Shown here: positions 25,861 through 30,887 of the stretch, one piece after another
Layout: every line of letters starts with the position of its first letter
Position numbering within the stretch: the first letter of the stretch is position 1
NCBI RefSeq assembly: GCF_031432975.1
Contig: NZ_CP133838.1
Span: forward strand, 2,418,001-2,482,000
Direction: 5' to 3'
Source: Buttiauxella selenatireducens
GTDB taxonomy: Bacteria > Pseudomonadota > Gammaproteobacteria > Enterobacterales > Enterobacteriaceae
Length of the DNA stretch: 64,000 nucleotides
Notes under the pieces: generated by a model
Database searches by the model: none
What the model saw: the letters and a program-made list of their open reading frames with translations, nothing else
Told to the model about the DNA's origin: nothing
Program-made: the position numbers and the translations under genes

Positions 25861-25979
25861 GCAGGTGAATGCAACGTCAAGCGATGGGCGTTGCGCTCCA
25901 TATTGTCTTACTTCCTTTTTTAGAATTACTGCATAGCACAATTGATTCGTACGGGCCGACTATAAGTCGGCTTTTTTTT
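25861..25979 (+). ncRNA. fnrS: FnrS small RNA
   Basis: About 119 nucleotides beginning GCAGGTGAATGCAACGTC and ending with a terminator, stem GCCGACT / AGTCGGC with loop ATA, then eight T residues. The sequence is nearly identical to my recollection of E. coli FnrS, including GCGTTGCGCTCC in the first part and the same position after zntB. FnrS is an Hfq-binding RNA made under anaerobiosis by FNR; it represses aerobic metabolism and superoxide-defence mRNAs. The main difference from E. coli is a shorter terminator loop. Confidence 0.92.
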
Positions 25980-27604: not shown

Positions 27605-27895
27605 TTATTTAGAGCAGTACACGCGAGCTTCGCGTGGGGTATAAATACCAAAGGTAATAAAGCCCAGGAAACCATTGACGAAGGTCTGTTGAACTTCAGT
27701 TCGTACCACTTTATCAGCACCACCACATACCGCCGCAGCATCAACCGTTTTGGCTTGGCCAATTCCGCTGACAAAGAAGTGATGCGTCGTGGTTTGCTGT
27801 GGTTTCTCAGCAATATCTTTGTTTATGGTAAATGTCTGCTGTGCACAACCCGATAACGCCGCTGCCGCTACAATCGCAATCGCTAACTTTTTCAT
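27605..27895 (-). CDS. bor: Bor-family outer-membrane lipoprotein
   Basis: A 96-residue lipoprotein: signal MKKLAIAIVAAAALSGC with the lipidated Cys at 17, then QQTFTINKD, THHFFVSGIGQ, VCGGADKVV and GFITFGIYTPREARVYC. These match phage lambda Bor, a lysogenic-conversion lipoprotein linked to serum survival, also carried by E. coli prophages. I start at ATG 27895, preceded by AAGGA; the frame extends to 27943 without homology. Its presence suggests a past prophage in this interval. Confidence 0.88.
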   Translation of the reverse strand: MKKLAIAIVAAAALSGCAQQTFTINKDIAEKPQQTTTHHFFVSGIGQAKTVDAAAVCGGADKVVRTEVQQTFVNGFLGFITFGIYTPREARVYCSK

Positions 27896-28012
27896 TTTCC
27901 TTACATCCCTATTTTTATATGTGAACTGCGCGTAGCTTCGCACTGTAATAAAGGGATGTGAAGTCTTGTTGGTGAGCGAGTAAGATTTATCTTAATTCTG
28001 TTTCATTTCCGT

Positions 28013-29209
28013 TTATACAATGAAAATATCGACGCCTGGTTTCCATTGGCTATCAAAAAATGACACCAGCGATGCCGGTCGATAAATTTGCATGCCCCAT
28101 TGGCCTTTACTGTCCTGAACGGGTAATGGGTTAGGGTAGTTCACTCGGGAAATGGCTGAGTGATGAATGGCCAAATCAGCAGACGCCGGTCTTTTAAACT
28201 TGCGTACACTCAGTGAATATTTAATCTTGTACCATTCACAATGGATTTGCCCACAGAAGTCAGCTACCCAGTTATCGGCTTGCAGTTTTACACCCAGATT
28301 AACCAGTTCATCCCGCATCCATAAATACGCGCCATTAGATAAGCCATTACCATTATTAACGCTACTATAACCGCCGCCGACATCAGCATGAATGCCGGGG
28401 AAGAGTACCTGTATAATATCTTTCCTTTGATCCCAATAGGTCGGGGTGAAATCCCGGCGCATTTCATCAATGGCTAACGCCTGCCTGCCGTATTTAACGT
28501 GTTCACCGAGGCTGGTATCGGTAAAACGATAAACATCCACGCGCTCATCATTCCAGTATTTTGGAATGCCTAATGCTCCTACTGTTTCCCAAACCGCGAC
28601 GGCTTCAATAGGGACAAAATAGAGCATCTTATTAGGGTCGATTTTATCGTGAAGAAAGTATGGCGCATCACGGATGATTCTATCCAGTAAATCACCATTG
28701 ACATTAGAATGTTCCCGATAGCTTCTCCATACGGCGGTGCCTAGTCGATACGCCTCCTCTTTATCATTACTTAGGTCGTATTGTGTCGCATCCAGCAGGC
28801 CACATTTACCAATCATTCCAGCCAGCGCTCGCACCGTATACGCACCACGGCTAAATCCAACCAGATAGATCTTGTCGCCTTTAGCGTAATTTCTGCTGAT
28901 GAAGGTATAACCGCGCACAATACGCTCAACCATTCCCGCACCAAATACACCGCCCATTATTTTTTCTAGCCAATTATTAGAGTCGCCGACACCATGCAGA
29001 TATTTGCTGACCTGGTAAACCACCCCTGATTTTGTGGTGGCGACCTTTTCTTGCTCATCGCGCAGAAACATATCCGGTGCATCTGCTGTACCGTCAAGTT
29101 CCGAAAATAGCCGCAGAACATTAGTCCGGTCAGGAATGCTATCGCCATTATCGTCATTTCCTGGGCCGTTCCAGGTTCCGTCAGCACAAAATATAATGTT
29201 TTTGCTCAT
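28013..29209 (-). CDS. DUF2235 alpha/beta-hydrolase (Tle1-like)
   Basis: A 398-residue protein of the DUF2235 family. The N-terminus IIFCADGTWN is the usual family opening, and the nucleophile motif GFSRGA is at 118-123 (Ser120). Some DUF2235 proteins are type VI secretion phospholipases (Tle1). No signal peptide is seen. ATG 29209 is chosen because GAGG lies six bases upstream; an ATG four codons earlier is less well placed. It begins 34 bases after the stop of the transglycosylase fusion on the same strand, so the two are likely one operon. Substrate unknown. Confidence 0.82.
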   Translation of the reverse strand: MSKNIIFCADGTWNGPGNDDNGDSIPDRTNVLRLFSELDGTADAPDMFLRDEQEKVATTKSGVVYQVSKYLHGVGDSNNWLEKIMGGVFGAGMVERIVRGYTFISRNYAKGDKIYLVGFSRGAYTVRALAGMIGKCGLLDATQYDLSNDKEEAYRLGTAVWRSYREHSNVNGDLLDRIIRDAPYFLHDKIDPNKMLYFVPIEAVAVWETVGALGIPKYWNDERVDVYRFTDTSLGEHVKYGRQALAIDEMRRDFTPTYWDQRKDIIQVLFPGIHADVGGGYSSVNNGNGLSNGAYLWMRDELVNLGVKLQADNWVADFCGQIHCEWYKIKYSLSVRKFKRPASADLAIHHSAISRVNYPNPLPVQDSKGQWGMQIYRPASLVSFFDSQWKPGVDIFIV

Positions 29210-29242
29210 GTCTGGCCTCATTCAAATCAGAACAGGATGACG

Positions 29243-30685
29243 CTATTTAAAGATAGAGCTAAAGCTACTGATGTCTTTATTCTCATTCCATTTTGTTTGT
29301 ACTTCTTCTTTCATACAATCATTAAACCATGAGACGAAATTATCAATGTGTCTGCCGGTTCCTTTTGGATAGCAGTGCATTTTCCAGCGATTGGCAGACG
29401 CATTATCAACGCGCAATGATCCTGCGTTATAGGCTGCGGCAACTTTAGGCGGGTCAAAATGAGTCACGTAACGTTGATGGGCAATATAAGCCGTTCCGGC
29501 TTCAATAGATGTGGCAGGGTCAAGCAGGTCGTCGCCGGTAAGTGAAGGCCGTCCCAATGCGCCGCGGGCAGTTTTGACCAGTGTTTGCATTAACCCAACG
29601 CTTTCGTCATGGATTTGCGGTTCCGCGCGTCTGGCGTTCCTGTCACCACCACTTTCTGTTGCGATAGTGGCGATGATCAGTTCAACGGGAACACCATACA
29701 TTTTCGAGGCTTGCACGCAATACGGGCCATACAGATCCCATATTTTCTCAACGGTGGTCGGTTTACCTTGTGTGCCTGACGGGGTGGTCCCCTGAATTGA
29801 AATCCCGTCTTTCTGCAAATTCCAGCTCACACCGCTGCTAATAAAGTCATGCGGGGCGGCCAGTTCACTCCATGTGTCATTGAGCAGGGTTGGTTTCGCG
29901 GGAACAGGAGGAGAGGCGATATCGTCAGAGCCACGGGCGCTGGAGCGGGGGATCTCCTGCTGAGGTTTTTCCTGAGAAGCATTCGACGCGGTGTTACTCG
30001 CGTTCGCCGCATTCGTCTCCAGTGTTTTCGCAACACTTTCACCGAGATTCTTAAAGCTGCTGGCCATCTCGATGCCTTTCTCTTTCGACCCCTGACTACT
30101 GCCCCAATAATAGCCAACGATGTTGGATGCTAATCCGTTGATAAAGCCAATGACAGTACCAATGATGCCGAATACTGCGGTCACAATGCTTTGCTTATCA
30201 CTGGGGATATCCACACCAGGAATAAGCAATAATAACGAGGTAATAATAACGACCAGCAATCCGCACATAGCTATCCAGACAATTTTAATGCCTGAATTAA
30301 AGATATTACCGGCAATACCCGAATTAATTTGGAAGTCCTGGATGCTTTGTTTTTCCTGTAAAGCCAGCTCAGCGAAACGTATCCCTGAAGTTATCTCATA
30401 GTGCTTCAGGCTTTCTTCGGCACTTCTCAGGTCTGTAACGATAGAAGGGGACGTTTGGTTATTTTTGATGACATCAACAATCTGTTCAGGTGTCATCGCC
30501 GCAGGGTTAATCGAGTTTCCGGCATTATCGCTTTGTTGGGCCACATTGGCGGACAAGTTTTTGCTCAGAATACTGGACACCACCGTAGCGGCTATAAGGT
30601 TCAGGGGGGGAGGCAGGCTAAGCGCGGTCAATAAAGTCGGGGCAACGCTTCTGATTAATAGCTTAATGTTGTCAGGAATATTCAT
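29243..30685 (-). CDS. Three-helix (holin-like) protein fused to a lytic transglycosylase domain
   Basis: 480 residues. The N-terminal part has three hydrophobic segments (about 14-40, 133-156 and 165-192); the last is followed by VGYYWGSSQGSKEK, a motif common after the last helix of small phage holin-like proteins. A Ser/Ala/Pro-rich linker leads to a GH23 transglycosylase domain: catalytic Glu344 in TIATESGGD, then SVGLMQTL and AAYNAGSLR. It would act on peptidoglycan. The start is uncertain: ATG 30685 (MNIPDNIKLL) is chosen, but the frame is open to 30751 and no good ribosome binding site is seen. Upstream of the DUF2235 gene in a probable two-gene operon. Confidence 0.8.
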   Translation of the reverse strand: MNIPDNIKLLIRSVAPTLLTALSLPPPLNLIAATVVSSILSKNLSANVAQQSDNAGNSINPAAMTPEQIVDVIKNNQTSPSIVTDLRSAEESLKHYEITSGIRFAELALQEKQSIQDFQINSGIAGNIFNSGIKIVWIAMCGLLVVIITSLLLLIPGVDIPSDKQSIVTAVFGIIGTVIGFINGLASNIVGYYWGSSQGSKEKGIEMASSFKNLGESVAKTLETNAANASNTASNASQEKPQQEIPRSSARGSDDIASPPVPAKPTLLNDTWSELAAPHDFISSGVSWNLQKDGISIQGTTPSGTQGKPTTVEKIWDLYGPYCVQASKMYGVPVELIIATIATESGGDRNARRAEPQIHDESVGLMQTLVKTARGALGRPSLTGDDLLDPATSIEAGTAYIAHQRYVTHFDPPKVAAAYNAGSLRVDNASANRWKMHCYPKGTGRHIDNFVSWFNDCMKEEVQTKWNENKDISSFSSIFK

Positions 30686-30887
30686 GCTACAGCTCATGAC
30701 GTGGGTGACCATGAATAAAGTTAAATTCTGAACTGGACCATTAACCCTCATCTGTTTTCATGATTTTAAATGACTCACTAAACATCGCCCTGAAAATGCA
30801 AACAAAACGTCAGCAGCGTTACCCCCTCAAATCTGCTAACATGCGCGCCAGACGCTGTCTGACAGCCCATTAATTGAGAGTATAATT

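Follow-up and report, generated by a model that had tools for sequence, protein, structure and literature searches.

The 64,000-nucleotide stretch of DNA from Buttiauxella selenatireducens analysed here (the window; contig NZ_CP133838.1, positions 2,418,001 to 2,482,000 of the forward strand) carries on its minus strand two adjacent genes that are the subject of this report. The upstream gene (29243..30685) encodes a protein of 480 residues in which a membrane domain of the phage protein family PHROG 1544 type is joined, through a linker, to a lytic transglycosylase of family GH23. The ATG that gives this length is kept in relatives, and the fusion is 97% identical to a locus of Buttiauxella sp. 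A111. The window's own genome is a single contig of 5.22 Mb. The downstream gene (28013..29209) encodes a DUF2235 hydrolase of 398 residues. This gene probably starts at the ATG at 29209, which has GAGG upstream and lies 33 nt beyond the stop of the fusion gene, and the two genes are probably co-transcribed. Promoter-like sites numbered 6 against a shuffle mean of 6.1, and terminator-like sites 6 against 3.0 (standard deviation 2.2). The original prediction, made from the letters of the window, had described a holin-like/transglycosylase fusion paired with a hydrolase and had offered a lysis or defence module or a secretion effector set as its role; its coordinates and catalytic residues (E344 and S120) proved correct when the open reading frames (ORFs) and motifs were checked.

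Domains of the two proteins

The C-terminal part of the fusion (aa 270-480; 29246..29878, minus strand), consisting of a GISI-prefix and the SLT domain, is by its sequence a member of the GH23/SLT lytic transglycosylases. PF01464 matched aa 324-432 with 62.9 bits (cut-off 21.3), and the catalytic glutamate that had been predicted, E344, lies within ATESGG. GLMQ at 364 and AYNAG at 418, which we take to be GH23/SLT marker motifs alongside the catalytic Glu, are both present. E344, M366-Q367 and A418-Y-N-A-G422 were invariant in all 11 aligned rows, and L365 is replaced by C in the two viral rows. The top PDB fold matches of this part were MltE (E 4.9e-4) and MltC, with Slt and MltF lower, and the AlphaFold model has good confidence here (block means ~77-95 from aa 261 onward).

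The N-terminal domain (aa 1-215; 30041..30685, minus strand) had been credited with three hydrophobic segments, and two of these are strong predicted transmembrane (TM) segments: TM1 at about aa 135-156 (30218..30283) and TM2 at about aa 167-192 (30110..30187), with Kyte-Doolittle values of 2.8 and 2.1, respectively. The first segment (about aa 14-43; 30557..30646) is weaker at 1.6 and is interrupted by three prolines, and the helix at residues 5-22 is moderately amphipathic (moment 0.43). The domain is conserved at APTLL..PPPxN near its start, in a helical middle part and, after TM2, at [FY]YWGSSQGSK; 37 columns were invariant among 11 sequences. In the window protein the GYYWGSSQGSKEK motif occupies aa 191-203 (30077..30115). 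A 79-aa viral protein (L051:4965-5204) that carries YYWGSSQGSADK and matches PHROG 9990 (E 1e-7) is apparently a minimal form of the unit made up of TM2 and this motif.

The downstream protein matched PF09994 with 226.3 bits and contains the nucleophile S120 in GFSRG as well as a GIHADVGG motif. It is thus, as first suggested, a Tle1-like alpha/beta hydrolase of the DUF2235 family, with a predicted enzymatic activity. Both genes are under purifying selection: compared with Buttiauxella B2, the ratio of nonsynonymous to synonymous substitution rates (dN/dS) was 0.057 for the DUF2235 gene and 0.064 for the SLT part, and the N-terminal domain gave proportions of nonsynonymous and synonymous differences (pN and pS) of 0.089 and 0.875. 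The variable linker (aa 216-265; 29891..30040, minus strand) had a dN/dS of 0.29. Synonymous divergence was saturated for the whole fusion against B2 and in both comparisons with Enterobacteriaceae RIT691.

Relationship of the membrane domain to phage lysis cassettes

The assignment of the N-terminal domain comes mostly through relatives of the window protein. All six of the scanned relatives that have the domain matched the PHROG 1544 profile (E 5e-11 for L029, 1e-9 for L032, 3e-7 for L035, 1e-5 for L031, 5e-5 for L026 and 9e-5 for L027). In the reverse direction, a profile built from the N-terminal domains of fusions (A2) found standalone prophage proteins with a best E of 5e-8. The genome G228 has seven copies that match this profile (L053 and L055-L060, E 5e-8 to 4e-6), at least one of them in a prophage-like stretch; the six copies listed carry FWYGSSQGSKEK or FWFGSSQGSKEK, and one copy has as neighbours a superfamily-II-like small holin, Terminase_2 and, about 1 kb off, an M15 peptidase. 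A motif of the GYYWGSSQGSKEK type recurs in these prophage proteins and in the corresponding protein of Synechococcus phage MinM1.

The phage members of the family lie among lysis genes. Five annotated phage regions, chosen from 47 matched records, were read, and in four of them the PHROG 1544 member adjoins an annotated cell-wall hydrolase or is separated from it by one small ORF. The hydrolase is a lysozyme family gene in Shewanella phage MuM16-2, an LD-endopeptidase, accompanied by a holin III, in Janthinobacterium phage Donnerlittchen, an M15 peptidase in MinM1 and an amidase in Vibrio phage D65; the genes upstream of the member in the fifth region, from Vibrio phage martha, are annotated as hypothetical. 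One phage member additionally matched a PHROG holin (E 1e-4), and the N-terminal domain of a Mesorhizobium fusion matched one phage record. Aligned by hhalign against a set drawn from phages, prophages and Mesorhizobium, the fusion N-terminal domains gave a probability of 96.4 and E 1.3e-9. Since the N-terminal domain is related to the lysis-cassette family PHROG 1544, the term holin-like in the original prediction describes more than a look-alike. The data support homology of the domain to membrane proteins of phage lysis cassettes, with a putative holin function, and at the level of homology the domain is not an anchor devoid of any relation to holins. Among the cassettes read, from phages or prophages, two that contain a family member also encode another holin, so the family may be an accessory protein, an antiholin, or a partner or regulator of lysis and not the hole-former.

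The strongest rival arises here, because both the topology of the domain and the function of PHROG 1544 are putative. In this alternative the fusion is a membrane-anchored lytic transglycosylase, held by three TM segments with its SLT domain always in the periplasm, which would open the wall locally and form no pore. The resemblance of the SLT fold to the housekeeping enzymes MltE, MltC and Slt would suit such an enzyme, as would the third, weaker hydrophobic segment, the unproven holin activity of PHROG 1544 and the presence of another holin in some cassettes. On the other side, the first segment is broken by prolines and partly amphipathic, the 37 invariant columns exceed what anchoring would appear to need, and the family of the domain is found in lysis cassettes. 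We consider a plain anchor possible, if somewhat unlikely.

Distribution, insertion site and partner gene

A scan of one species-genome collection gave at least 16 loci, of which at least 12 join the SLT domain to a PHROG 1544-type domain. These belong to Buttiauxella (two species), Enterobacteriaceae RIT691, Methylobacterium (two), Roseomonas, Rhizobium, Alloyangia, a metagenome-assembled genome of Chromatiaceae, Paracoccus and Mesorhizobium (two). Further fusions were found on a plasmid of Rhizobium jaguaris and in three additional genomes, whose N-terminal domains match the phage/Mesorhizobium profile with E 9e-52 to 3e-12. The hosts thus span the alpha- and gammaproteobacteria. Since the architecture is conserved across an alignment of 14 rows (A4), 13 of which have the SLT part, it is not a product of chance. 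The Mesorhizobium-type fusions have a clearly different N-terminal domain (FWLGSSQGSRSK) on the same SLT domain, so that two distinct PHROG 1544-type domains have been joined to one kind of transglycosylase. SLT domains of this kind also stand alone on viral contigs, and on one piece of a viral contig (L062) the complete fusion lies about 4 kb from a gene of a phage SSB family (E 1e-39).

Some relatives have extra wall-directed parts at their C-termini, namely an M15_4 peptidase in L032 and PG_binding_1 in L029 and L031. The last two also match PHROG 3000 at roughly aa 590-810 (E 4e-35 and 2e-36, respectively), which in the alphaproteobacterial fusions is perhaps another wall-acting domain; this domain occurs in phages as well, crAss-like ones among them, and the C-termini of L022, L028 and L030 look alike by eye. 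Directly upstream of the Mesorhizobium-type fusion in L032, L033 and L145 lies a gene for a hydrophobic protein of about 530 aa (L032:5128-6720, L145:8491-10071) that gave no convincing Pfam match and is a candidate conserved partner, present in L145 although DUF2235 is absent there. In two loci the Rhizobium fusion is immediately preceded by a protein of about 1030 aa (L022:4715-7810, L028:3787-6867), a possible sensor, which in L022 has a weak match to solute-binding proteins (PF00497, E 0.015). In the copy of Methylobacterium E-045 (L034:6955-8430) the N-terminus lies in another frame, owing to a frameshift or an assembly error.

The fusion is rare. It is present in 3 of 12 Buttiauxella genomes, counting the window's own and a second of its species, and a distant blastn search of E. 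coli genomes gave no match. Random genome samples were searched with up to 7 or 10 first-look candidates scored per genome. Of 398 genomes sampled from the phylum, three matched the N-terminal profile, one being the window's own and the other two having standalone proteins of prophage type; of 397 from the order of G499, one matched, namely G499 itself. The C-terminal profile was matched in 5 of 394 genomes of the family of G505, two of which were known before, in 1 of 295 of the family of G502 (itself) and in 1 of 295 of the window's own order (itself).

Comparison with pair-free relatives shows how the two genes came to lie where they do. In the relative G003, about 220 bp separate the matches to the two flanks, the bor side and the dbpA side, as against about 2.85 kb in the window, and the stretch unmatched there is 27969..30821. 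In all nine Buttiauxella genomes that lack the fusion, the space between dbpA and the adjacent gene is free of the pair; in eight of them that gene is bor, starting 274-357 bp away. Because the site is empty in these relatives, the pair is a two-gene insertion beside dbpA, and bor, which in the window encodes a Bor lipoprotein (27605-27892, minus strand; PF06291, PHROG 260), is an unrelated resident. A role for bor as a third member of the system or as an immunity gene was therefore rejected. The ninth pair-free genome (G006, L154) has no bor and carries a small ORF like that flanking the pair in Buttiauxella B2 (L024), secreted-looking in both genomes. Searched for next to the pair, bor was not matched in B2 or in RIT691. 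The pair in RIT691 has other neighbours, and within the Enterobacteriaceae it occupies two different sites. Elsewhere in the window the FnrS small RNA was recognised at 25861-25975 on the plus strand (RF01796, 112.9 bits), the sole Rfam match above the gathering score.

The phage type of the fusion's parts, together with a neighbouring bor of a family known from lambda, might suggest a decaying prophage remnant without function. This is most improbable: no other phage gene was recognised in the ORF list between ttcA and dbpA, selection on the genes is strongly purifying, fusions of the same type occur in 16 species, and bor also lies at the site in genomes that lack the insert.

Absence of such co-occurrence elsewhere, which would have refuted the original prediction, was not observed, but the co-occurrence is partial. 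A DUF2235 gene adjoins the fusion in 5 of 16 bacterial species, from two lineages, namely the window's species, Buttiauxella B2, RIT691, Mesorhizobium camelthorni and M. alhagi, which includes both sites in the Enterobacteriaceae. It was not found beside the fusion in the 11 other species or on the viral piece L062, with short flanks in two of these (Roseomonas L027, 0.7 kb upstream and 3.1 kb downstream; Alloyangia L029, 2.4 kb downstream). This count takes L004 and L023, which are one genome of the window's species, once together with the window, retains L034 despite its out-of-frame N-terminus and excludes the loci of Agrobacterium vitis (L036-L038, SLT only) and Pseudomonas dw_358 (L035, no SLT). 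The Mesorhizobium hydrolases are only 34-35% identical, and their pair is therefore a second, distant one. The chance of immediate adjacency was estimated at about 1 in 1,000 per genome, assuming at most five DUF2235 matches and roughly 7,000 genes in a genome of about 7 Mb. Given this low chance, and the absence of DUF2235 beside 11 of the 16 related fusions, the pairing is probably meaningful but optional. Among 116 plasmid records that matched DUF2235, the four that were read showed no match to the fusion profiles within 5 kb. The open full-text literature yielded no paper with both DUF2235 and holin and seven with both DUF2235 and transglycosylase, PMC3482391 among them; a search pairing Tle1 with spanin gave nothing relevant.

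PF09994 is the catalytic family of Tle1, and the window's own genome has three genes for VipB, the sheath protein of the type VI secretion system (T6SS). The pair could on this basis be a set of effectors for that or another contact-dependent system, with the hydrolase as a Tle1 phospholipase and the fusion as a second injected effector. However, of 14 host genomes only 8 yielded a VipB gene; the six without a match, most of them drafts, are those of both Methylobacterium, Rhizobium cauense, Alloyangia, Paracoccus and Mesorhizobium camelthorni. No obvious vgrG, T6SS gene or paired immunity gene was seen by eye in the neighbour ORF lists, for which no systematic scan was made, and bor, as a resident of pair-free sites, is not the immunity gene of the pair. 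The same genome also encodes a second DUF2235 protein (G000:C1:4789054-4789953) about 27 kb from a VipB gene, which is likelier than the paired one to be a T6SS Tle1 effector. Because VipB was not found in 6 of the 14 genomes and this other DUF2235 gene lies near VipB, an effector set is quite unlikely, and no link to secretion was found for the role first proposed.

The patchy presence in Buttiauxella and the mobile, accessory and lysis-derived character of the pair would also fit an anti-phage module that kills the infected cell early by abortive lysis. PADLOC, however, matched none of three window proteins and none of eight of nine neighbouring or related proteins, the ninth giving a weak Cas3e match (E 0.0056), and neither a sensor domain nor defence neighbours were recognised. 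The suggestion of a defence module thus gained no convincing defence-family match, and we regard abortive lysis as improbable.

Proposed function and comparison with known systems

We propose, with a probability of roughly one half, that the upstream gene is a domesticated holin-endolysin fusion, derived from phage lysis genes and serving in one polypeptide as a device for lysis or protein release. The PHROG 1544 membrane protein, joined at its C-terminus to the GH23 lytic transglycosylase, would accumulate in the inner membrane as a two-TM hairpin with both termini inside (N-in/C-in), so that the transglycosylase would lie on the cytoplasmic face. When triggered, the membrane domain would permeabilise the membrane or flip, and the tethered enzyme would then reach the murein and cut the wall. 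The DUF2235 hydrolase might be freed as cargo, or it might attack phospholipid and help to open the outer membrane in place of spanins, and the outcome would be lysis of the producer cell or release of protein from it. No spanin pair was recognised by eye among the neighbours, where no search with spanin profiles was made. A bolder version, which we put forward very tentatively and regard as doubtful, is that the two genes form a self-contained, mobile, prophage-independent lysis machine of Gram-negative bacteria, in which the fusion would both breach the inner membrane and bring its attached murein-cutting enzyme across, and a phospholipase would stand in for the spanins at the outer membrane, for programmed lysis or protein release.

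In favour of the domesticated holin-endolysin reading are the PHROG 1544 matches of the relatives, the wall hydrolases near phage members, the PHROG holin match and the hhalign result, the joining of two N-terminal domain types to one SLT domain, the extra wall-directed parts, the fusion on a viral contig piece, the purifying selection and the two-gene insertion. Several observations weigh against it or limit this evidence. The window protein itself matched PHROG 9990 with E 8e-4 and PHROG 1544 weakly, with E 0.014; in a sample of 99 genomes from its bacterial family two matched the PHROG 1544 profile, and the window's own genome had no match at E 0.001. PHROG 1544 lacks an assigned function, and in two cassettes a member is, as noted, accompanied by a different holin. 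The hhalign comparison set includes two Mesorhizobium fusion rows. As a weak lead, PF11351 (GTA_holin_3TM) was seen in three of the six phage or prophage members at 17.3-19 bits, below the cut-off of 24.8, but families with no relation to holins scored equally well in that scan (TMEM247 E 2e-4, Lipase_chap E 0.007); the N-terminal domain of the window protein matched no Pfam holin, PF11351 included. Another weak lead came from BFVD, where a protein named 'Holin of 3TMs' ranked 13th for the model of the fusion, at 23% identity over 227 columns and E 1.3e-3, with low TM-scores of 0.20 and 0.37. Searched by tblastn against 50,697 phage records, the fusion, its N-terminal domain and the DUF2235 protein found nothing, and the standalone viral SLT likewise had no match among phage records. 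The AlphaFold confidence of the N-terminal domain is low to moderate, and the counts of lysine plus arginine in 11 sequences (0-3 before TM1, 0-2 in the loop and 2-3 after TM2) favour the N-in/C-in hairpin only weakly. The structure model of the hydrolase (mean pLDDT 42.8) is too poor for use, and the hydrolase accompanies the fusion in a minority of species.

The nearest known protein is a natural fusion of a TpeE-family holin and an endolysin in six C. sporogenes genomes (Brueser and Mehner-Breitfeld, PMC9527704), the only natural holin-endolysin fusion that we found described in the part of the literature covered. According to that paper, the access of endolysins to the wall is debated between a large lesion and a flipping of C-terminal cargo; the authors propose that weakening of the membrane lets the cargo flip to the other side, where it may be active without being released from its anchor, and they add that a similar mechanism may apply to holins with more than one TM helix. 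As here, a holin-like part and a wall hydrolase share one chain. The C. sporogenes fusion, in the same account, belongs to a Gram-positive host and has one TM and an amphipathic helix, whereas the present family combines a two-TM PHROG 1544-type domain with a GH23 SLT domain, occurs in Gram-negative hosts of two classes and on a viral contig, and has an optional DUF2235 partner. It would therefore be a Gram-negative kind of fusion, of a sequence type unrelated to the Clostridium protein. The PHROG 1544/PF11351 phage proteins are alike in domain organisation and homology, but those read stand alone in their phages and are not fused. With Tle1-like DUF2235 effectors (PF09994), a family placed among lipid-acting toxins as Tox-ABhydrolase-1 in PMC3482391, the hydrolase shares the catalytic domain with GxSxG and GxHxD; it differs in being a short single-domain protein beside a lysis-type gene, outside a T6SS cluster. 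Should it attack phospholipid, it would provide a non-spanin route for opening the outer membrane.

Bacteria with the type 10 secretion system, too, employ lysis genes of phages for the lytic release of proteins (PMC10847048). The likeness to this system lies in phage lysis genes that are kept outside prophages. There, holin, endolysin and spanin are separate genes, whereas here one fused gene joins the first two functions, if the proposal is right, with a transglycosylase in place of crosslink-cleaving endolysins and no known cargo. Since cargo and holin-like domain occur naturally in one chain, the question of how an endolysin gains access to the wall becomes testable in a Gram-negative host.

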